A DNA stretch of 45,580 nt from NCBI GenBank assembly GCA_003599865.1, contig QZKS01000003.1:1-45580 (forward strand). The letters run 5' to 3'. Below, piece by piece: positions 35,084 through 45,580 of this stretch. Position 1 is the first letter of the stretch. Every line of letters begins with the position of its first letter. Position numbers and translations under genes: made by a program. The DNA is from Desulfobacteraceae bacterium. GTDB lineage: Bacteria; Desulfobacterota; Desulfobacteria; Desulfobacterales; SURF-7. The notes beneath the pieces are model-generated. The model saw nothing but the letters and a program-made list of their open reading frames with translations, was not told the origin of the DNA and made no database searches.

Positions 35084-35160
<77 letters not shown>

Positions 35161-35165
35161 TGAAA

Positions 35166-36320
35166 TCAAGGGTTTACATTCACACAAGTTAACCTTTTTT
35201 TGCTTCTGGTCTCCATTTGGTCTCCACTTTCACCCAAAACCATTTTTTCAAGCCTTGAAGCCGCTTTTTGATTGACCGGCTTTAATAAGTGAGCATAGGT
35301 ATTAAGCGTTACACTTGGTGTTGAATGCCCCAACTGTGTTTGAATATATTTGATGTTTTCCCCCTGGTCAATCAAAAGACTTGCAAAGGTATGGCGCAAA
35401 TCATGAAATCGGATTCTTGGGATTCCGGCTTTCTTTAATGCCGGAAAAAAGAAACGGTTCAACATATGGGATTGATCCATCGGCCCCCCATCACGATTTG
35501 GAAAAATCAGATCCAGTTCGGTCTTTGGGCACTCCCTTTGCCATTGTTTCAAATCAGCAAGAACAGACGGCCCCATGTCTATTTTTCGGATAGATGTTTT
35601 TGTTTTTGGATTGTACCATGCCTTTTTATTGAAAGTCCGTTTGATATAGATCTGGCTTGTTGTCCACAAAACATCTGTCCACTTTAACCCCAAAAGTTCA
35701 CCTTGTCGGCAGCCGGTGAAAATGGCGAGTTTAAAAAGCATGTAATACTTCTTTTTATCCGATATGCTTTCCAGCAAGGCGGGTTATCTGTCCAGGCGTC
35801 AAAACCTTTGTTTTCTCCGACTCCGGAAGCTCTACGCTGCTTTTTTTGGGCTTCTCTGCATCCCGTACTGGATTGAAATCTGTCAACCTTTGCCTTACGG
35901 CATATTTCATCACCTGGTTGAATGTAATCAAAACCTTTTTGAGTGTTGCCCTGGTCATTCCCAGGGAAAGCTTATCGGAAATGAACGCTTCAACCGTTTG
36001 CGGATTGATCCTGTTTATTTTGATAGGATCAATATCAAAGAAATAATGTTTCAAATGCCCCTGATATCCGGCCAGCGTAGAAGCCCGGACATTGTTCTTT
36101 TTCTGGTCAATCCAGTTCTCAGCAACTTCTTTGAATGCCAGTGCCTCCTTTGTGGGAATGAAAATACCCTTGGCAACCGTATCTTCAATCTCAGCACATA
36201 GTTTGTTTGCCTGTGCCTTTGTTGCTCCTTTGGGTAAAACCTTCAACCGCCGTTTTCCGTGTTGATCCCGAAAGTCGATACAATATCGGCCCTTTTTTTC
36301 ATTCTGGTCACAACAGCCAT
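35166..36320 (-). pseudogene. Tyrosine recombinase/phage-type integrase, broken by two frameshifts
   Basis: Read as one gene it gives about 384 residues. An N-terminal arm-binding part starts at ATG 36320 (MAVVTRMKKR then GRYCIDFRDQHGKRRLKVLP), followed by a SAM-like core-binding domain (VAENWIDQKKNNVRASTLAGY) and a catalytic domain with Arg in FTGCRQGELLGLKW, HDLRHTFASLL, and LGHSTPSVTLNTYAH holding the final Tyr. One shift is at an A7-G3 run (36290-36299); the other is at about 35771-35779, where one extra base turns RLLESISDKK into RLAGKHIG-stop. The catalytic residues remain, so decay is recent or the shifts are sequencing errors in the assembly. The 3' end lies 5 bp from tRNA-Arg. Confidence 0.85.
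35171..35201 (+). terminator. Rho-independent terminator of tRNA-Arg
   Basis: Stem GGTTTAC/GTTAACC (six of seven pairs) followed by seven T, starting 11 bp after the tRNA CCA. It overlaps the antisense end of the integrase gene. Confidence 0.5.
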
Positions 36321-37885: not shown

Positions 37886-37917
37886 TAAAAGTGCCGTCAA
37901 AAAACAGGGAACAAAAT

Positions 37918-40900
37918 ATGAGCAAAATATTCATCACAAGACACATCACTGCAATTATCTCATTTGTTGCACTCACTCTTTCATGCCTTTTTCCCGGAAG
38001 TTCGAAAGCGGCAGACTCCCTATGTGCTGAAGTCAAGCTTGAGATAAAGCAGGAAGTCTCCCTGGAAAGACAGGCCTTTCTTGCTCATATGAAAATCAAT
38101 AACGGGTTGACCAATATATCCCTTGAGGATGTGGATATTGAAGTTAACTTTACCGATCAAGACGGTAATCCAATTGTTGCCGCCTTTGATCCCAATGCCG
38201 ACCCGGAAACCACAGGAGCACGCTTCTGGATCAGTGTGGATTCCATGGAGAACATCAATAACATCAACGGCAGCGGCCAGGTCTCTCCATCAACATCCGC
38301 TGATATCTACTGGCTGATCATACCGGTTCCCGGAGCGGCGGACAGTCAGCCCCAGGGCAAGCTTTACTATGTTGGTGCAACCTTGACATACACCATCGGC
38401 GGGGAAGAAAACGTAACCAAGGTAACACCTGACTACATCTACGTAAAACCAATGCCGGCGCTGATGCTGGATTATTTTATCACAAAGAATGTTTACGGGG
38501 ATGATGCGTTTACCACAGAGATTGAACCATCAGAGCCATTTTCATTAGGATTGAGAGTAAAGAACATCGGTTCGGGAATTGCGAAAAGCCTGAAGGTCGA
38601 TTCGGCCCAACCCAAGATTGTAGAGAATACACAGGGGCTTTTGATTGGCTTTACCATAGAAAAAAGTGTTGTCAATGACCGGCCGGCATCCAACACGTTG
38701 CTTGCCGACTTCGGTGATATCCAACCCTCGACATCCGGTTTGGCAAGATGGATCATGAGCTGTTCTTTATCCGGACAATTTGTTTCCTTCAGCGCAACCG
38801 TTTCCCATTCGGATGAACTGGGGGGAGAGCTGACTTCCATTATTAAGCAGGAGAATATCCATACCCATTTTCTTGTCCGTGATGTTCTTGCAGACCTTGC
38901 CGGAAGGGATAACATCCGGGATTTTCTTTCCATCAATGGTTCCGGCTATAAGCTGTTTGAGTCGGACAGTGATGATTCCGATGTTACGGATCTTTCCTCA
39001 TCCTCTTCGATTCAGTTTCAGGAAACGAGCGGCAGTGAAATCATTTATACACTTTCCACAAATTCTCAGGCAGGATTTGTTTTCATCAAACTCCCGGACC
39101 CGCAAAACGGGCAGATGATATTGAAAGGCATGACCAGTGCCGGGGGAAAACAGATCAAGGACGCAAACTTTTGGCTCTCCAGGGAACGGAAAGCAAACCC
39201 GGCCGATGGCTGGAATCATTTCATCAATCTGTTTGATGTAAACCCGGCATCGACCTATACGGTTGTGTTTGATGATCCCGGTACAATGCCGCAAGCCCCT
39301 GTTTTGGCATTCATTCCGGATCGATCCGGCAGCGAAGGGCAGGAGATTTCATTTATAGTGGAAGCATCCGATCCCAATGGAACGATCCCGGCTCTGTCTG
39401 CTGCATCCCTGCCTGTAGGCGCAACTTTTACAGATCAGGAAAACGGTACCGGTATATTCAGCTGGACAGCCTCCGTTGGCCAGGCAGGCGACTATAATAT
39501 TTCTTTTACGGCATCCGACGGTATTCTTGCAGATACCAAAAGAGCCAACATTAACATCCACACCCAGGATGATACGGATGGCGACGGCCTGAACGATGAA
39601 TGGGAAATGATCCATTTCGGAACCCTTGAGCGAGACGGCACCGGGGATTATGACAATGACGGCATTTCCGATTACATGGAATATCTTTTGGGAACCGATC
39701 CCACCCGGGATGATCATCCGCCTACGATACCTGTCATTCTTTCTCCAACAGAGGACGGCACGGTAACATCCCTTACGCCGGTTCTGGTCATTGAAAACAG
39801 CACCGATCCGGATGGTGACAGCCTTACCTATGAATTTGAAATTTTTACCGATGAGACGCTAACGCAAAATATTGCCACATATTCTGATGTGCCGGAAGGG
39901 TCAGGAACTACCACCATTACCGTAACACCCGCGCTCATTGAAAACACTTCCTATGTATTTCGTGTGAGGGCTTCAGACGGCGCTGCCCGAAGTCTGTGGG
40001 CATATGGATCATTTTTTGTGAATACCGCCAATGAGGCACCTTCCGATTTTGATACCAGTTATCCTAAGGACGGATCGAGTGTGGATTCTCTCACACCCCT
40101 GATTCAGATTTCTGCTGCACACGATCCTGACCGGGATCTGCTTTCCTATAATCTTGAGATTTATAATGACAGTCAGTTAACCAGCCTGGTTACGTCAGCC
40201 GCATTTGCGCCGGAACCTTCCGACAGTTTTATTTCCTGGACGGTTAACCAGCCCCTGACAGACGGATCGGATTACTATTTCCGGGCAACCGCATCCGATG
40301 GCAACGGTGCTGAGACCAGTACTTCGGTCAGCATGTTCCATGTCAATACGGGAAACCAGGCACCTGCCATACCGGTAATCATATCCCCGGCACTGCAAAG
40401 CCAGCAGAATTCTCAGTCCGTTGAACTTGTTGTCCAGAATTCAACCGATGGTGAAGGAGATACACTGACCTATCTGTTTGAAATCGATACGGCCGCCACT
40501 TTTAACAGTCCGGACAAAATTATCTCCAGCCCAATTTTAGGGGGTAATACGCAAACATCATTTCTCGCATCAAGCCTTGCCGACAATACCATGGTTTATT
40601 TCCGTGTAAAGGCATCTGATGCTGTCTCAGCGAGTCCCTGGGCTTTTGGAACTTTTTTTGTAAACACACAAAATGACACACCGGAAAAGGCTGTTCCGGA
40701 AAATCCGGGAGATCTTGCCTGGGTAACGACTCTTTTTCCAGTGCTTTCGGCAGCTCCGGCAATTGATCCGGATGGGGACATACTCTCTTACCGGTTTGAA
40801 GTATACGCGGATTCGGAACTTACCGATCTTGCCGCAGAAGGGGTATCAGACCAGCGGACGTGGACCATTACAGAAGGTCTTGCCGATAATACTCTGTATT

Positions 40901-43900
40901 TTTACAGAACCCAGGCCCAGGATCCGGACGGTCTTACAGGCGAATGGTCGGAAACCGCTTCCTTTTTTACCCAAATGGCGGATACATCGCAAACCATCAG
41001 TGTGACCCTGCAGACGCAAGAGGGGACACTGCTTCCGGATATCAGAATATATGCGTTCAATGAGGCCGGGTCCTATCTTGGATTGAGTGCGGATACGGAT
41101 CAAAATGGAGTTGCGGTTTTTCAGCCAATTGATTTTCCCCAGGGCAATGTCAAGTTCCGTGCCGAATATCTGGGAACCCAATTCTGGTCGGATCTTATCG
41201 CTCTTCCCGGGAGTTTTACCGCGACCATTTCGATACCGGTAGAGACCGTAACCATCTCGGTTGCAACCGCGGCCGGACCGGCAGAAAATGTAAAAGTGTA
41301 TGTTTTCACCGGGACCGGCTCATACCTGGGCCTGAACGGCACAACCCTTTCGGACGGAACCGTAGTGTTTACCCTTCCGGCAGGCGCAGTCTATGATTTC
41401 AGGGCCGACATCATGGGAGGACAATATTTCAGCCAGGACAATGTCGTGACCGGCGGAGGCGGCAATCAGTTCACGGTTTCTGCCGGTGGCGGGTTATTCT
41501 CCATTACCGTTCAGGAGAACCCGACCGCTCCGATGGAAGACATCCGGGTTTACCTGTTCCGGGAAAACGGCAGCTATCTTGGTGCAAACAATGTCACCGA
41601 CAGCATGGGCAATATTTCTTTTGCCGTCCCTCAAGGCAACTTTAAGGTACGTGCCGATTACCTTGGTTATCAATTCTGGAGTTCAAGCACCCTGATTGAA
41701 TCCGACACAGGGATCGATCTGACCATTCCCCATCAGGATGTCACCATAACGGTAACCAGTCTTTATGATCAGGCTGCAACTCCCATCGAAAATATCCCGG
41801 TTTATCTGTTTACGGAAGCCGGATCATATATGAATCGGACAAATCAGACCGATAACGCCGGACAAGTGGCATTTCACCTGCCGGAAGTCTCCTACAAAGT
41901 GCGTGCCGATTATCGGAATCTTCAATTCTGGTCCGAACCTTTTGTATTCGCAGATGAAACCATACCGATTCCCATGGCCGATGCCGAAGTTCAGGTTGGA
42001 TGGGGCGACTTTTATCTTGAAGGGGTTCCGGTATATGCCTATACATCATCGGGCTCCTATCTGAATCTGAACCAGACGACAGATGAAAATGGAATGGCTG
42101 TTTTCCGCCTCCCGGCAGCCGGCAATTACAAATTCAGGGCAGATTACCAGGCCGGCCAATACTGGAGTGAAGATACAACCCTTGTTGCCGATGAGGTCAA
42201 CCCGGCACCCATCACTACCGGGGGCGGCACCTTCTCCCTTTCCGTTTTAAAAGGGGCGGATGATCCCCTAGTCGGAGTCATGTGCTATGTGTTCAGTGAA
42301 TCCGGGTCCTATTTTGGAGCTTACGGCCCCACCAGCAGTGAGGGTGAGGTTTCTTTTGATCTTGCCGACGGGAATTACAATATCCGTGTGGATTATCTCG
42401 GGTACCAGTTCTGGAGTCCGGTTCTGTACGAGGTTCCGGAAACCCTGGCCGGTACGATTACCATTCCGCATCAGGATGTATCCATAACCGTCAACGGAAC
42501 CTATCAGGGAGTTTTACAACCGATTCCTTCCATACCGGTCTACCTGTTTACACCGACCGGAAGTTACATGAATTTGAACCTCCCGACCGACACCAACGGC
42601 CAAGTGGTTTTCAACCTGCCGGATAAATCTTACAAAGTCCGTGCGGATTATCGCAGCCGGCAGTTCTGGTCCGGGGAATTCCTCCATACAGACACTGTCG
42701 TGGATATCCCCATGGCCGATGCGGAGATAACGGTCACCGGCGGCGGACAGCCCATTGCCGACATTCCGGTATATGTATTTACCGGTTCGGATTCCTACCT
42801 GAATATGAATCAGCATACAGATGCTGCCGGCAAAGTTGTTTTCCGGCTTCCGGCTTCCGGCACCTATAAGTTCCGGGCAGATTATCAGGGGAGCAATTAC
42901 TGGTCCGACGAAGCCTCTCTGGTTCCGGATCAGATTAACCCCATAGCTGTTTCAACCGGTGGAGGACCTTTTACCTTCACGGTTCTGAAGAGTGCGGATG
43001 TTCCTCTGGTCGGAGCAAGCTGCTATGTATTCAGCGAAAGCGGGACCTATCTCGGAATGAACGCGATTACCAGCAGTGAAGGTCAGGTTTCATTTGAACT
43101 CGCTAACGGAAACTATAAATTTCAGGTGGATTATCTGGGATACCAGTTCTGGAGCAATGTCTACAATGTGCCGACTACCCTTAACGATACAATGACCATC
43201 CCTCATCAGGATGTTGTCATTTCCGTCAACAGTTTGTTTCAGGGTGTTGCAACACCGCTTTCAGGAGTACCGGTATATCTGTATACCCAGTCGGGATCTT
43301 ACATGAATCGGAATCTGACCACTGATTCCAATGGACAGGTGATCTTTAACCTGCCGGACAAGGCCTATAAAATCCGGGCGGATTACCTGAACGGACAGTT
43401 CTGGTCCGGAGAATTTATCCAGACCGATACCACTGTCGATATCGCCATGGCCGATGCGGAAATTACGGTCACAGGCGCCGGACAGCCGCTCTTCTCGGTA
43501 CCGGTATATGCGTTTACCGTATCAGGGGCTTATCTGAACATGAATCAGTCAACCAATACCAACGGCAAAGTATTATTCCGTCTGCCTGCAGGTGCTTATA
43601 AGTTCCGGGCTGATTATCAGAACAACCAGTACTGGTCGGGCGATAAAACGCTTGTTTCAGACCAGATCAATTCCATCCCAATCACCACAGGCGGTGGTGC
43701 GTTTACGCTTACTGTTCTCCGCACCAGCACTGACCCGCTCGCTGGAGCACGCTGCTATGTTTTCAGCGCTCAGGGATCATATCTGGGGATGTCCGGAACA
43801 ACTGATGCAAATGGTCAAATTACCTTCAATTTAGCAGACGGGAATTATAAATTCAGGGTCGATTATCTGGGTTCACAATTCTGGACCGGAACCTATACGG

Positions 43901-44427
43901 TGCCGGACACCCTGTCCGACAATTATCTGATCGCGCATCAGGATGTCATAATAACCGTCGCGGGAATGTACCAGACAACAGCAGCGCCAATATCCGACGT
44001 AAAAGTCTATCTGTATACATCTTCAGGCGCATACATGAACCAGAACAAGACAACGGATGCCAATGGCCGGGTGATCTTTAATCTGCCTGCTGTTCAATAC
44101 AAGGTGCGGGCTGACTATCTGGGTTATCAGTTCTGGTCAGCACCGTTTGTATCCGAGAATTCCACGGTAACCATCAATCAGGGACTTGCTAATGTGCATG
44201 TGAGCCGTTCAGGAGCGGGCGTCGAAAATGCACGGGTCTATCTTTTTACCGGTGCGGGTTCCTATATGAACTGGAATCAATACACCGATACCCTCGGTGT
44301 TGCTGAATTTCTTATACCGGACAGGGCATATAAGTTCCGTGCAGATAAAGATGGTGATCAGGTTTATAGTGCAGTTACTACCATTGCACCTGGCATAGAA
44401 AATGTGGTGGAGATTGGGTTGGAATAG
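37918..44427 (+). CDS. Giant secreted multidomain repeat protein
   Basis: 2169 residues from the ATG at 37918 (AGGGAAC upstream; a GTG nine codons earlier is in frame but has no site). It has a Sec signal peptide (ISFVALTLSCLFPGSSKA). An N-terminal part of about 430 residues carries HTHFLVRDVLADLAGRDNIRDFL. A putative Ig domain follows at about 458-548 (SEGQEISFIVEASDPNG). A calcium-binding DTDGDGLNDEWE / DYDNDGISDYMEY segment lies at 552-580. Four fibronectin/cadherin-like domains span about 602-1023 (DPDGDSLTYEFEI and similar), then 14 repeats of about 80 residues run to the end. No sorting motif, membrane anchor or type I secretion signal is visible at the C-terminus (ENVVEIGLE). Probably a surface or matrix protein; function unknown. 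Confidence 0.9.
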   Translation: MSKIFITRHITAIISFVALTLSCLFPGSSKAADSLCAEVKLEIKQEVSLERQAFLAHMKINNGLTNISLEDVDIEVNFTDQDGNPIVAAFDPNADPETTGARFWISVDSMENINNINGSGQVSPSTSADIYWLIIPVPGAADSQPQGKLYYVGATLTYTIGGEENVTKVTPDYIYVKPMPALMLDYFITKNVYGDDAFTTEIEPSEPFSLGLRVKNIGSGIAKSLKVDSAQPKIVENTQGLLIGFTIEKSVVNDRPASNTLLADFGDIQPSTSGLARWIMSCSLSGQFVSFSATVSHSDELGGELTSIIKQENIHTHFLVRDVLADLAGRDNIRDFLSINGSGYKLFESDSDDSDVTDLSSSSSIQFQETSGSEIIYTLSTNSQAGFVFIKLPDPQNGQMILKGMTSAGGKQIKDANFWLSRERKANPADGWNHFINLFDVNPASTYTVVFDDPGTMPQAPVLAFIPDRSGSEGQEISFIVEASDPNGTIPALSAASLPVGATFTDQENGTGIFSWTASVGQAGDYNISFTASDGILADTKRANINIHTQDDTDGDGLNDEWEMIHFGTLERDGTGDYDNDGISDYMEYLLGTDPTRDDHPPTIPVILSPTEDGTVTSLTPVLVIENSTDPDGDSLTYEFEIFTDETLTQNIATYSDVPEGSGTTTITVTPALIENTSYVFRVRASDGAARSLWAYGSFFVNTANEAPSDFDTSYPKDGSSVDSLTPLIQISAAHDPDRDLLSYNLEIYNDSQLTSLVTSAAFAPEPSDSFISWTVNQPLTDGSDYYFRATASDGNGAETSTSVSMFHVNTGNQAPAIPVIISPALQSQQNSQSVELVVQNSTDGEGDTLTYLFEIDTAATFNSPDKIISSPILGGNTQTSFLASSLADNTMVYFRVKASDAVSASPWAFGTFFVNTQNDTPEKAVPENPGDLAWVTTLFPVLSAAPAIDPDGDILSYRFEVYADSELTDLAAEGVSDQRTWTITEGLADNTLYFYRTQAQDPDGLTGEWSETASFFTQMADTSQTISVTLQTQEGTLLPDIRIYAFNEAGSYLGLSADTDQNGVAVFQPIDFPQGNVKFRAEYLGTQFWSDLIALPGSFTATISIPVETVTISVATAAGPAENVKVYVFTGTGSYLGLNGTTLSDGTVVFTLPAGAVYDFRADIMGGQYFSQDNVVTGGGGNQFTVSAGGGLFSITVQENPTAPMEDIRVYLFRENGSYLGANNVTDSMGNISFAVPQGNFKVRADYLGYQFWSSSTLIESDTGIDLTIPHQDVTITVTSLYDQAATPIENIPVYLFTEAGSYMNRTNQTDNAGQVAFHLPEVSYKVRADYRNLQFWSEPFVFADETIPIPMADAEVQVGWGDFYLEGVPVYAYTSSGSYLNLNQTTDENGMAVFRLPAAGNYKFRADYQAGQYWSEDTTLVADEVNPAPITTGGGTFSLSVLKGADDPLVGVMCYVFSESGSYFGAYGPTSSEGEVSFDLADGNYNIRVDYLGYQFWSPVLYEVPETLAGTITIPHQDVSITVNGTYQGVLQPIPSIPVYLFTPTGSYMNLNLPTDTNGQVVFNLPDKSYKVRADYRSRQFWSGEFLHTDTVVDIPMADAEITVTGGGQPIADIPVYVFTGSDSYLNMNQHTDAAGKVVFRLPASGTYKFRADYQGSNYWSDEASLVPDQINPIAVSTGGGPFTFTVLKSADVPLVGASCYVFSESGTYLGMNAITSSEGQVSFELANGNYKFQVDYLGYQFWSNVYNVPTTLNDTMTIPHQDVVISVNSLFQGVATPLSGVPVYLYTQSGSYMNRNLTTDSNGQVIFNLPDKAYKIRADYLNGQFWSGEFIQTDTTVDIAMADAEITVTGAGQPLFSVPVYAFTVSGAYLNMNQSTNTNGKVLFRLPAGAYKFRADYQNNQYWSGDKTLVSDQINSIPITTGGGAFTLTVLRTSTDPLAGARCYVFSAQGSYLGMSGTTDANGQITFNLADGNYKFRVDYLGSQFWTGTYTVPDTLSDNYLIAHQDVIITVAGMYQTTAAPISDVKVYLYTSSGAYMNQNKTTDANGRVIFNLPAVQYKVRADYLGYQFWSAPFVSENSTVTINQGLANVHVSRSGAGVENARVYLFTGAGSYMNWNQYTDTLGVAEFLIPDRAYKFRADKDGDQVYSAVTTIAPGIENVVEIGLE
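40998..44427 (+). repeat. Fourteen ~80-residue protein repeats in A-B-C higher-order triplets
   Basis: Each repeat follows the pattern VPVYLFTxSGSYxNxNxxTD, then NGxVxFxLPxxxYKxRADY and QFWS, as in carboxypeptidase-regulatory-like beta sandwiches. Three subtypes alternate: A ends HQDV, B ends MADAE, C ends TTGGG. The order is B-C, then A-B-C four times. A subtypes begin at about 41493, 42229, 42967 and 43699, a period of 732-738 bp. Three of the four A copies (the second to fourth) have one Cys at the same place (MCYVF, SCYVF, RCYVF). Confidence 0.9.
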
Positions 44428-44461
44428 TTTGGTTTGATTGGTTTGATTGGTTTGGTTGGTT
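44428..44461 (+). repeat. Left satellite arm, 9-nt period (GGTTTGATT)
   Basis: About 3.5 copies of a 9-base unit starting at the stop codon of the giant protein gene. 44429-44453 is a perfect 25-nt reverse complement of 44970-44994 in the right arm. Confidence 0.9.
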
Positions 44462-44507
44462 AGCAGCGACAGCACTTGTAAAACCAGTAAGTCCGAAATG
44501 TTTGGTT

Positions 44508-44894
44508 ATGACTACGATTAAAAGATTTGAAGATTTAGAATGCTGGAAAGAAGCCAGAGATCTGGTTCGACTGGTTTATACGTTTACACATAAAAGCAAT
44601 TTTAAATCTGACTTTGAACTCAAGAATCAAATCAAAAGAAGTGTCGTATCAATTATGGCAAATATTGCTGAAGGATTTCATAGAAATAGTAACAAAGATT
44701 TTATGAGATTTTTGGATTATTCACGATCCTCGATAGCAGAAACCATGAGTCATTGTTACGTTGCTTTGGATCAAAATTATATTGATAACAATGATATGCA
44801 AAAAGTTAAATTTCAATCAGATCTTGTTTGGAAGAAACTAAATAATTTTATCAACTATCTGAATAATAACGTTAAAAACAAACAAAACCTATAA
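44508..44894 (+). CDS. Four-helix-bundle protein of the S23/IVS family
   Basis: A 128-residue protein beginning MTTIKRFEDLECWKEARDLV, with RSVVSIMANIAEGFHRNSNKDFMRFLDYSRSSIAETMSHCYVALD. This is the signature of the 23S rRNA intervening-sequence protein family, also related to the Avd accessory protein of diversity-generating retroelements. No function is firmly established for the free-standing members. The ATG at 44508 is used; a TTG two codons earlier is in frame. The gene is far richer in A and T (AAT, AAA, TTT codons) than its neighbours, which suggests transfer, and it is enclosed by complementary satellite arrays. Confidence 0.92.
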   Translation: MTTIKRFEDLECWKEARDLVRLVYTFTHKSNFKSDFELKNQIKRSVVSIMANIAEGFHRNSNKDFMRFLDYSRSSIAETMSHCYVALDQNYIDNNDMQKVKFQSDLVWKKLNNFINYLNNNVKNKQNL

Positions 44895-44951
44895 AACCGG
44901 AATGATATATTTGATTCAATGGATGGCAAAACGGCAACCGATCAAATACAA

Positions 44952-45041
44952 AAACCAATAAAACCAATAAAACCAATCAAACCAATCAAACCAATGAAAC
45001 CAATGAAACCAATCAAACTAATGAAACCATTCAAACCAATC
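44952..45041 (+). repeat. Right satellite arm, ten copies of AAACCAATN
   Basis: Ten uninterrupted 9-base units. The variable ninth base is A, C or G, and copies 8 and 9 carry single changes (AAACTAATG, AAACCATTC). It is the reverse complement of the left arm. It is in frame with the rhodanese gene and would read Lys-Pro-Ile/Met. Confidence 0.92.
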
Positions 45042-45580
45042 ACCATTTTAACAACATTGCTATTCCTATCTTCAGCATTATATGCTCATGAAACGTTCCA
45101 GACCCAGGTATCATCAATTTTACAAAGATTCAAACAAGACAAAATATTCATAATTGATACCCGTCCAAAAGAAGCATACGACAAAATCAGAATCCCGGGC
45201 TCCCTGAATTTTCCTCTTCACGTGATCAAAACCAAGCCTTTCCTGAAAACCAAACCGGTTGTCCTCATCAACAACGGATTTTCAACCTCTCTCCTGAAAC
45301 AGGAATGCAGCAATCTGAATCAAAAAGGTTTCAAGGCATCAGTCCTGACCGGAGGCCTCAACGCCTGGAGACATCAAAAGGGACCTCTTGAAGGTGATCT
45401 CATTGAGTCAAAAACATTCAACATGGTTTCACCCCAGGATCTTTTCACCGAAAAGGAATCAGGAAACACCATTGTTATAGATGCGTCCAAAAAATCAGGT
45501 CATGGAATCAAGGAATTATTTCCGCAAGCACGAATTCTATCATCCTTATGTGATAACTATCCCTCCAATCTCTGTGCCTC
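45021..45580 (+). CDS. Secreted rhodanese-like protein, partial (runs off the right edge)
   Basis: At least 186 residues. From the ATG at 45021 it reads MKPFKPITILTTLLFLSSAL then YAHE, a good Sec signal peptide. Further in-frame starts lie within the satellite (44994, 45003) and before it (44919, MDGKTATDQIQ), and none has a ribosome-binding site, so the start is uncertain. A rhodanese fold follows (IFIIDTRPKEAYDKIRIPGS and VLTGGLNAWR). The usual active-site Cys loop is replaced by INNGFST, so sulfurtransferase activity is unlikely. A second rhodanese-like domain begins at FNMVSPQDLF and continues beyond the window. Confidence 0.8.
   Translation, partial: MKPFKPITILTTLLFLSSALYAHETFQTQVSSILQRFKQDKIFIIDTRPKEAYDKIRIPGSLNFPLHVIKTKPFLKTKPVVLINNGFSTSLLKQECSNLNQKGFKASVLTGGLNAWRHQKGPLEGDLIESKTFNMVSPQDLFTEKESGNTIVIDASKKSGHGIKELFPQARILSSLCDNYPSNLCA

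Follow-up and report, generated by a model that had tools for sequence, protein, structure and literature searches.

Intervening sequences (IVSs) of 23S rRNA that encode S23-family proteins are present in Leptospira as well as in Coxiella. The Coxiella IVS holds an S23-family ORF between complementary ends, is cut in the stem that such ends form, and has been called a selfish element (PMC4990558, in excerpt). A resident gene also lies near its repeats in the RAYT/REPIN system, where the type of repeat is tied to the gene and the repeats are dispersed as inverted pairs, which are non-autonomous copies (PMC3116915, in excerpt).

Tandem heptamers form a further group for comparison. A 2015 paper on Xanthomonas described arrays of GGGNATC, with the heterogeneous form GGGANTN, and counted convergent plus/minus pairs, 70 in one genome and 75 in another (PMC4692102, in excerpt). 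According to the same excerpt, two Xanthomonas species have the same genes on either side of 90% of the repeats, few inverted pairs are present in Nostoc 7120, and the repeats have no general link to mobile elements. G-quadruplexes are discussed there, and neither "S23" nor "four helix" occurs anywhere in the text as available. A published link between S23 and tandem arrays was absent among the matches listed, with subscription papers and preprints outside the scope. Here, we describe an S23 gene enclosed by complementary tandem arrays outside rRNA, together with its relatives in other genomes. At the level of sequence, the data strongly support a mobile element that consists of a single gene and has tandem arrays as its ends.

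An S23 gene between complementary arrays

The stretch analysed, called the window below, comprises 45,580 nt of contig QZKS01000003.1 (assembly GCA_003599865.1) from a Desulfobacteraceae bacterium. Near its end, an S23 gene separates a GGTTTGATT array from a AAACCAATN array that is complementary to it. The whole element, consisting of array, S23 gene, and complementary array, spans 44429-45042 with no strand assigned (sequence, TRF, and arm scoring). Its left arm, at 44429-44461 on the plus strand, holds 3.7 copies of the 9-nt unit TTGGTTTGA (TRF and arm scoring). The right arm, at 44952-45042 on the plus strand, holds 10.1 copies of the 9-nt unit AAACCAATN, given by TRF as AAACCAATC, and is complementary to the left arm. 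A perfect 25-nt complement between 44429-44453 and 44970-44994, already noted in a preliminary description of this DNA, can be read directly in the sequence and lies within 33-nt arms that are 94% complementary. The same description had placed the arrays around an S23 gene outside any rRNA. This is borne out by TRF, by matches to PF05635 and TIGR02436, and by a scan of the window with Rfam (gathering threshold), which found no rRNA and had one tRNA as its sole match.

The S23 gene (44508-44894, plus strand; about 128 aa) begins with an ATG at 44508 and ends with a stop codon at 44892-44894, and an in-frame TTG at 44502 is a possible alternative start. Its product scored 110.8 bits against PF05635 (cut-off 33.8) and 106 against TIGR02436 (cut-off 24). 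AlphaFold2 predicted a four-helix bundle with a pLDDT of 95.4 from an alignment of 61 proteins. The nearest solved structures were 2gsc and 2rld, followed by Avd (4dwl; TM 0.72, E 0.074) and the DGR RT complexes 8ub7 and 8ube, with 7-10% identity between S23 and the Avd-type structures. Avd is essential for DGR retrohoming, and PF05635 is said to resemble it (PMC10053308, in excerpt). In Pfam, S23 matched PF05635 alone, and in NCBIfam it matched four-helix-bundle or hypothetical models; neither collection gave a match to a transposase family or to a recombinase, nuclease, RT, or other catalytic domain.

Upstream, a gene for a 2178-aa repeat protein with CarboxypepD_reg and other Pfam domains (37891-44427, plus strand) stops 1 nt short of the element. 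Downstream, the right array overlaps the start of an ORF for a rhodanese-domain protein (Pfam; 44919-45578, plus strand, open at the window end) and is read in frame. By eye, this gene starts either at ATG 44919 or at an in-frame ATG within the array, such as 45021; its ortholog in a genome of the same genus (G001) starts without such an array. The right array (window 44919-45080) encodes KPI/KPM repeats ahead of a signal-peptide-like stretch of this gene, and array-coded N-termini of a similar kind are present at other loci, such as L072 and L116. Elsewhere in the window, within 35084-36246, a tRNA-Arg adjoins an ORF that by eye resembles a tyrosine recombinase N-terminus, and the two are possibly the remnant of an integrated element.

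When the whole 5.0-Mb genome of this bacterium was searched with the repeat pattern (up to 3 mismatches), 12 places matched, 10 of them at the window locus. The other two form a single, overlapping short run (contig C45), leaving almost no dispersed copies. The arm score of the window element, as defined in the next section, is 30-32, and a score of 25 was reached by 4 of 609 control ORFs. Together, the concentration of matches at this locus and the arm score relative to controls indicate that the window arrays are not a product of chance. By eye, the short array on C45 seems to lie within an RHS-like coding region. The genome contains one S23 gene above the PF05635 cut-off and one fragment below it.

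Complementary arms at S23 and PF13366 loci

Arms were scored as the best local complementarity between the 200 nt upstream and the 200 nt downstream of a gene and were called at a score of at least 18. Scanning public genomes for the window S23 protein yielded 403 relatives; we retained the best 80, of which 76 had enough flank. The threshold was reached at 53 of the 76 S23 loci versus 21 of 609 other ORFs of the same loci (median 22 versus 11). With upstream and downstream flanks drawn from different S23 loci, 8.1% of pairings scored at least 18. Rfam, run on 17 of the 80 named S23 loci, found no rRNA. Chance microsatellites are ruled out by these controls and by the inserts at occupied versus empty sites described below.

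A larger set, with order-level relatives added and the window included, comprised 133 distinct S23 loci that cover at least 85% of the model and have flanks. The preliminary description had proposed testing the S23 genes of related genomes for complementary arrays of fixed period, and such arms were found at 96 of these 133 loci. According to it, homologous S23 genes without arrays in close relatives, or arrays occurring widely without an S23 gene, would speak against the proposed element. Both exist to a degree. Arms were not detectable at 37 of the 133 loci, and arrays apart from an S23 gene are common in some genomes; in a second order, discussed below, arrays track the resident S23 and largely its type of arm. 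The period was equal on both sides in 89 of the 96 arm-bearing loci, at 7 nt in 48, 8 nt in 20, 9 nt in 19, and another value in 2. The GTY-rich arm lay upstream of the S23 gene in 82 of the 96 and downstream in 12, with 2 tied. As this configuration does not depend on gene strand, it is a property of the element. PF05635 was present in 30 of 40 relatives of the window genome.

Genes of a second family, PF13366 (PDDEXK_3), which we take to be of the GxxExxY type, had complementary repeats of short period on both sides in 27 of 38 loci (e.g. L125 on G001:C36 and L129-L158). Their repeat types include CACAGAG, CACGAAG, and CAGGATT, and the period is less regular, being equal in both arms in 15 of the 27. 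These genes look, from their sequence, like a second class of similar design. PF13366 as an obligatory partner of S23 was rejected, with no association over 40 genomes (both families in 18, S23 only in 12, PF13366 only in 5, neither in 5; p 0.72). Across 907 kb centred on S23 and PF13366 genes, we counted 170 complementary array pairs, of which 90 were labelled S23, 16 PF13366, and 64 neither, the labels being approximate.

Occupied and empty sites

S23 relatives on plasmids came from 16 records, 12 cyanobacterial and 4 from Riemerella. Arms were present at all 11 plasmid loci fetched from these records, with scores of 19-37 (control, the 609 ORFs of the main locus set). Similar plasmids lacking the S23 gene were used as empty sites, with flanks 85-94% identical in a subset of the comparisons. 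A comparison of occupied and empty sites had been suggested at the outset, and in alignments of named cyanobacterial plasmids it yielded inserts of 403-599 nt consisting of array, S23 gene, and array. For example, Picosynechococcus PCC 7003 carries 416 nt between cmr2 and cmr3 at a site that is empty in PCC 7002. Nostoc C052 pC052_D carries 417 nt where pC052_A, pC052_B, and Nostoc C057 are empty, and Nostoc N6 carries 599 nt at the same site, with an S23 gene annotated as only 240 nt. Further inserts were 481 nt (Nostoc edaphicum), 403 nt (Aulosira), and, at a different site within the same gene set, 506 nt (Nostoc ATCC 53789). Plasmid S23 elements lie within cyanobacterial CRISPR loci (cmr2|cmr3 and cas6|cas4) at L258, L262, and L263.

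Both insert edges fall within the arrays in PCC 7003, C052, N6, and N. edaphicum. The ATCC 53789 insert extends about 40 nt past the right array, and about 20 nt of the left flank are unaligned in Aulosira. The comparison of Anabaena 90 with Dolichospermum was not clean, as the other plasmid has different DNA at that place. No clear target duplication was seen by eye in the occupied/empty pairs.

Moved copies were also apparent. Within single genomes, flank homology was undetectable around S23 copies that are 97% (L160/L019) and 92% (L172/L174) identical; between genomes, the same held for two pairs with 91% identical S23 (L187/L190 and L071/L098). Homology ends at the outer array edges or within about 20 nt of them in three of these pairs (L172/L174, L187/L190, and L071/L098), and in L160/L019 it continues about 40 nt further and stops in a small palindrome. 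A subgroup comprising L019 and L160, with similar ends in L161, L211, L212, and L039, has an extra palindrome of the TTCTCCAACTAAATTGGAGAA type just beyond the right array. Many other S23 pairs share their flanks (e.g. L071/L099, L117/L114, and window/L044), as is expected of plain descent among close pairs.

In these alignments, the block of array, S23 gene, and array is shown to be present or absent as a unit, its arms sharing one period. The arrangement recurs as an insertion at numerous sites in widely different bacteria and so appears to be an unrecognised kind of mobile element. The original proposal of a free-standing element of IVS-like design outside rRNA is thus supported, with evidence of mobility. 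We infer this mobility from comparison rather than from observed transposition.

Remains of elements and gene-free arrays in relatives of the window

A family relative (G006) has the same neighbours as the window and an S23 element with the window's repeat unit between them. Between the same two genes, G001 carries a PF13366 gene with CACAGAG/CTCTGTG repeats and no S23. A second site, between pheA and aroE (both named by Pfam), holds an intact S23 element in G002, an element with an internal deletion and a broken gene in the window's own genome (G000), and the two arms only in G001. A short spacer is present there in 5 of 8 family relatives (G004, G005, G006, G007, and G010); G008 and G009 have another gene upstream, and G011 has other short DNA. 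This series indicates that array-only pairs can arise by gene loss. At the same site, G003 (L221) has a different inverted repeat, CCCCCCTCAAGGGGGG, where sister species keep the remains of S23 elements.

Arrays cognate to the window's 9-mer are dispersed in some relatives, with 163 matches in G005, 73 in G010, and 46 in G006, versus 2 in G001. Genome-wide searches found none in G002, G003, G004, G007, or G008, and in G009 and G011 a reversed-pattern control was also high. The 73 matches in G010 form 38 arrays. All 10 neighbouring pairs among them are in the configuration of S23 arms, 9 being 1-61 nt apart, and in 5 of the 10 gene-free pairs the matches are at most 11 nt apart. These searches show, by sequence match, that gene-free inverted pairs of the same unit are dispersed in some host genomes. 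An S23 of the window clade was absent from G010 (a 91%-complete assembly) despite its many cognate arrays, which counts against a strict rule of gene and array together.

Such observations bear on whether the arrays themselves are the mobile or self-amplifying part, spread by some other enzyme, with S23 and PF13366 genes as passengers between them. Some genomes have far more gene-free arrays than S23 genes, two unrelated families share the design (96 of 133 and 27 of 38 loci), one site is occupied by S23 or PF13366 in sister species, and G010 has cognate arrays without the cognate S23. We nevertheless regard passengers as quite unlikely, given that S23 proteins of one clade have similar units even in different phyla, that arrays go with the presence of a resident S23 gene and largely with its type of arm, and that purifying selection acts on S23, as the comparisons below detail.

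Coupling of the repeat unit to the S23 protein

A tree of the 133 S23 proteins, built on few columns and with many weak forks, requires 21 changes of period versus 34.4 with labels shuffled (minimum 28 in 200 shuffles). Unit similarity (k-mer cosine) in cross-phylum pairs with 60-80% S23 identity was 0.38 (n=27, from few clades), with Pseudomonadota, Thermodesulfobacteriota, and Myxococcota pooled and doubtful "Clostridia" titles dropped. Before pooling, with the NCBI phylum taken from record titles, the value was 0.42 (n=33). Similarity fell to 0.08 at 50-60% identity (n=321) and was at most 0.08 below 60%. For example, an AACTC 8-mer is common to S23 genes of Nitrospinota and Planctomycetota, and an ACTTCGC 7-mer to those of Chloroflexota and Hydrogenedentota. 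Such comparisons show the repeat unit following the S23 protein clade across phyla. The dN/dS ratio was 0-0.21 in all 10 S23 pairs with pS <0.5, saturated pairs above 0.5 being left out; by this measure, selection on S23 is purifying.

One of the solved S23 structures, 2GSC, is that of the X. campestris protein XCC0516. We predicted, before searching, that S23 genes of the XCC0516 type carry GGGNATC-type arms, and the prediction held. The order searched was that of G040 in GTDB, G040 being the genome that carries the Wenzhouxiangella locus L104. This order is presumably Xanthomonadales; NCBI taxonomy places Wenzhouxiangella in Chromatiales. S23 was present in 115 of its 299 genomes. We took 49 loci (29 best-scoring and 20 chosen from 3.5-5.2-Mb genomes), 48 of them with flanks, and found arms at 44 of the 48. 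By a strict periodicity test, both arms were periodic in 32 of these 44, one arm in 6, and neither in 6. In the best 30 loci, S23 was 54-71% identical to 2GSC. Arm units included GGGATTC, GGGAATC, GGGACTC, and GGGACCG.

The GGGATTC pattern (up to 3 mismatches) gave 101-635 matches in 18 of 20 S23-positive genomes, the others being G246 with 9 and G279 with 2. Among 20 S23-negative genomes, it gave 2 matches in G047, 1 in G079, and none in the other 18. The positive genomes were chosen by us, are clustered, and share mostly one orthologous site, so the cases are not independent. The set also leans towards arm-bearing genomes, as G179, G233, and G238 (with the armless S23 loci L318, L330, and L317) were left out; G228, in which the arm score of L327 does not come from an array, was kept. 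The GGGACTC pattern (up to 1 mismatch) gave 40-464 matches in all 4 genomes with GGGACTC arms and none in 8 genomes with GGGATTC/GGGAATC-type arms or in 4 without S23. It also gave 230, 40, and 5 matches in 3 of 4 genomes with GGGACCG or GGGACCC arms, which shows that similar units are not fully told apart.

Many of the loci in this order recur at the same place in many species, with 21 of 49 upstream of accC and 11 of 49 upstream of carB. We confirmed accB/accC on either side of L313 and carA/carB on either side of L296; in L296, the carA frame continues into the array. Could S23 instead be a host regulator or chromosome-structuring protein with the arrays as its binding sites, the element being old and immobile? 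Such retention, the purifying selection on S23, and the stable repeat positions in Xanthomonas (PMC4692102, in excerpt) are what this account would expect. It is made very improbable by the insertion polymorphism, by copies in unrelated places, and by internal stops in the S23 gene at 15 of the 133 loci.

DNA repeat or RNA stem

The predicted RNA of the window element folds with its arms paired (z -4.26, 20 shuffles). This is consistent with an RNA-level element whose arms are selected as an RNase III-cut stem like that of 23S rRNA IVSs; insertion into an operon would then be harmless and mobility secondary. Several inserts do lie between co-oriented neighbouring genes, as do L313 and L296, and the Coxiella precedent is the cleaved stem cited above. 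A selected RNA stem is expected to have more G.U than A.C mismatches. No such excess was present in the arms of the 133-locus set (189 G.U versus 238 A.C) or in G040's order (90 versus 113), and this test does not support the RNA stem as a selected feature. The close spacing within half of the gene-free pairs in G010 likewise argues against an RNA-level element.

We also compared complementarity within loci with that across loci. In the window clade, the medians were 25 for both (means 30.6 versus 26.6), so a shared unit explains most of the complementarity there. In three other clades, own and cross medians were 23 versus 13.5, 26 versus 22, and 30 versus 28.5. At fixed sites, arms agreed better within than across species (25 versus 23 at the accC site, 33 versus 20 at the carB site), which indicates that the arms change together and suits selection on RNA. 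We conclude that complementarity is maintained mainly at the DNA level by the shared unit, and we consider an RNA-level element unlikely. The preliminary description had offered a mobile or RNA-processed unit as alternatives. The inserts and moved copies favour the former; the latter is not supported, since the arm mismatches carry no RNA-stem signature, and the close-set gene-free pairs also speak against it. RNA cleavage in the predicted stem is possible.

A probable minimal mobile element

Our preferred reading, which we consider probable, is that an S23 gene and the inverted tandem array on either side of it make up a single minimal mobile element, about 400-600 bp long, with S23 acting alongside a host enzyme in the manner of RAYT. 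S23, with its Avd fold, would bind the DNA of its cognate array, perhaps in a single-stranded, folded-back form. Together with a host enzyme, it would promote the copying of both the full element and gene-free pairs, analogous to the role proposed for RAYT in the copying of REPINs. The action of S23 itself on the arrays is something we infer. The window copy would be one such element, situated between the large repeat-protein gene and the rhodanese gene.

Several points count against mobility of this kind. S23 matches no catalytic domain, 37 of 133 loci lack arms, and target duplication is not clear. G010 has arrays without a clade S23, the window's own genome has few dispersed copies, and many flanks are shared. 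Published Xanthomonas data report repeats that are positionally stable and have no general mobile-element link (PMC4692102, in excerpt).

A broader generalization, to which we give even chances, would have S23 proteins mobilise a new class of elements with 7-9-nt tandem-array ends. Their gene-free copies would have generated a large share of scattered heptamer-type repeats (Xanthomonas-type GGGNATC, those of Desulfobacterota, and perhaps those of cyanobacteria), with PF13366 as a parallel second class and rRNA IVSs as S23 elements that landed in rRNA. If true, bacterial tandem-repeat families reported without an agent would gain a cause, the much-annotated four helix bundle/S23 protein would become a mobility protein, and rRNA intervening sequences would be a special case of S23 elements. 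The chemistry would be new, as the element has no recognised recombinase. With Picosynechococcus PCC 7002 (empty) and PCC 7003 (occupied), a named pair of cultivable cyanobacteria, the proposal is directly testable.

Comparison with known systems

Unlike classical IS and MITE elements, the S23 element has no recognised transposase. A target-site duplication was not clear by eye in the occupied/empty pairs. With Avd of DGRs it shares a fold (4dwl, TM 0.72 but E 0.074). Identity is only 7-10%, and in this comparison, which is one of fold only, the element has no known DGR part.

Among repeat families, the GGGNATC repeats of Xanthomonas and Nostoc are comparable, GGGATTC/GGGAATC heptamers being S23 arms in the second order. 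The STRR repeats of cyanobacteria resemble the arms in being able to form a hairpin (PMC2670836, in excerpt). The heptanucleotide elements of Geobacter metallireducens are likewise dispersed tandem heptamers, some paired on opposite strands. They differ, in a comparison by description, in having been read as regulatory, and S23 has 0 occurrences in the text as available (PMC2700814, in excerpt).

The rRNA IVS shares with the S23 element an S23-family ORF between complementary ends. In contrast to it, the window element lies outside any rRNA gene (Rfam), the ends of S23 elements are 7-9-nt tandem arrays (those of the IVS being taken from its description), their arms lack the mismatch signature of an RNA stem, and gene-free derivatives exist. 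RAYT/REPIN offers a parallel in behaviour. Dispersed arrays comparable to REPINs are present in relatives (G005, G006, and G010, with the inverted pairs described above in G010) and in the second order, though not in the window's own genome. S23 differs from RAYT in not being an HUH tyrosine transposase (Pfam, NCBIfam, and its four-helix bundle fold), and its repeat is a tandem array where that of REPIN is a single short palindrome. While failing a defining feature of each, the S23 element appears to work like RAYT/REPIN and looks like a freed rRNA IVS.
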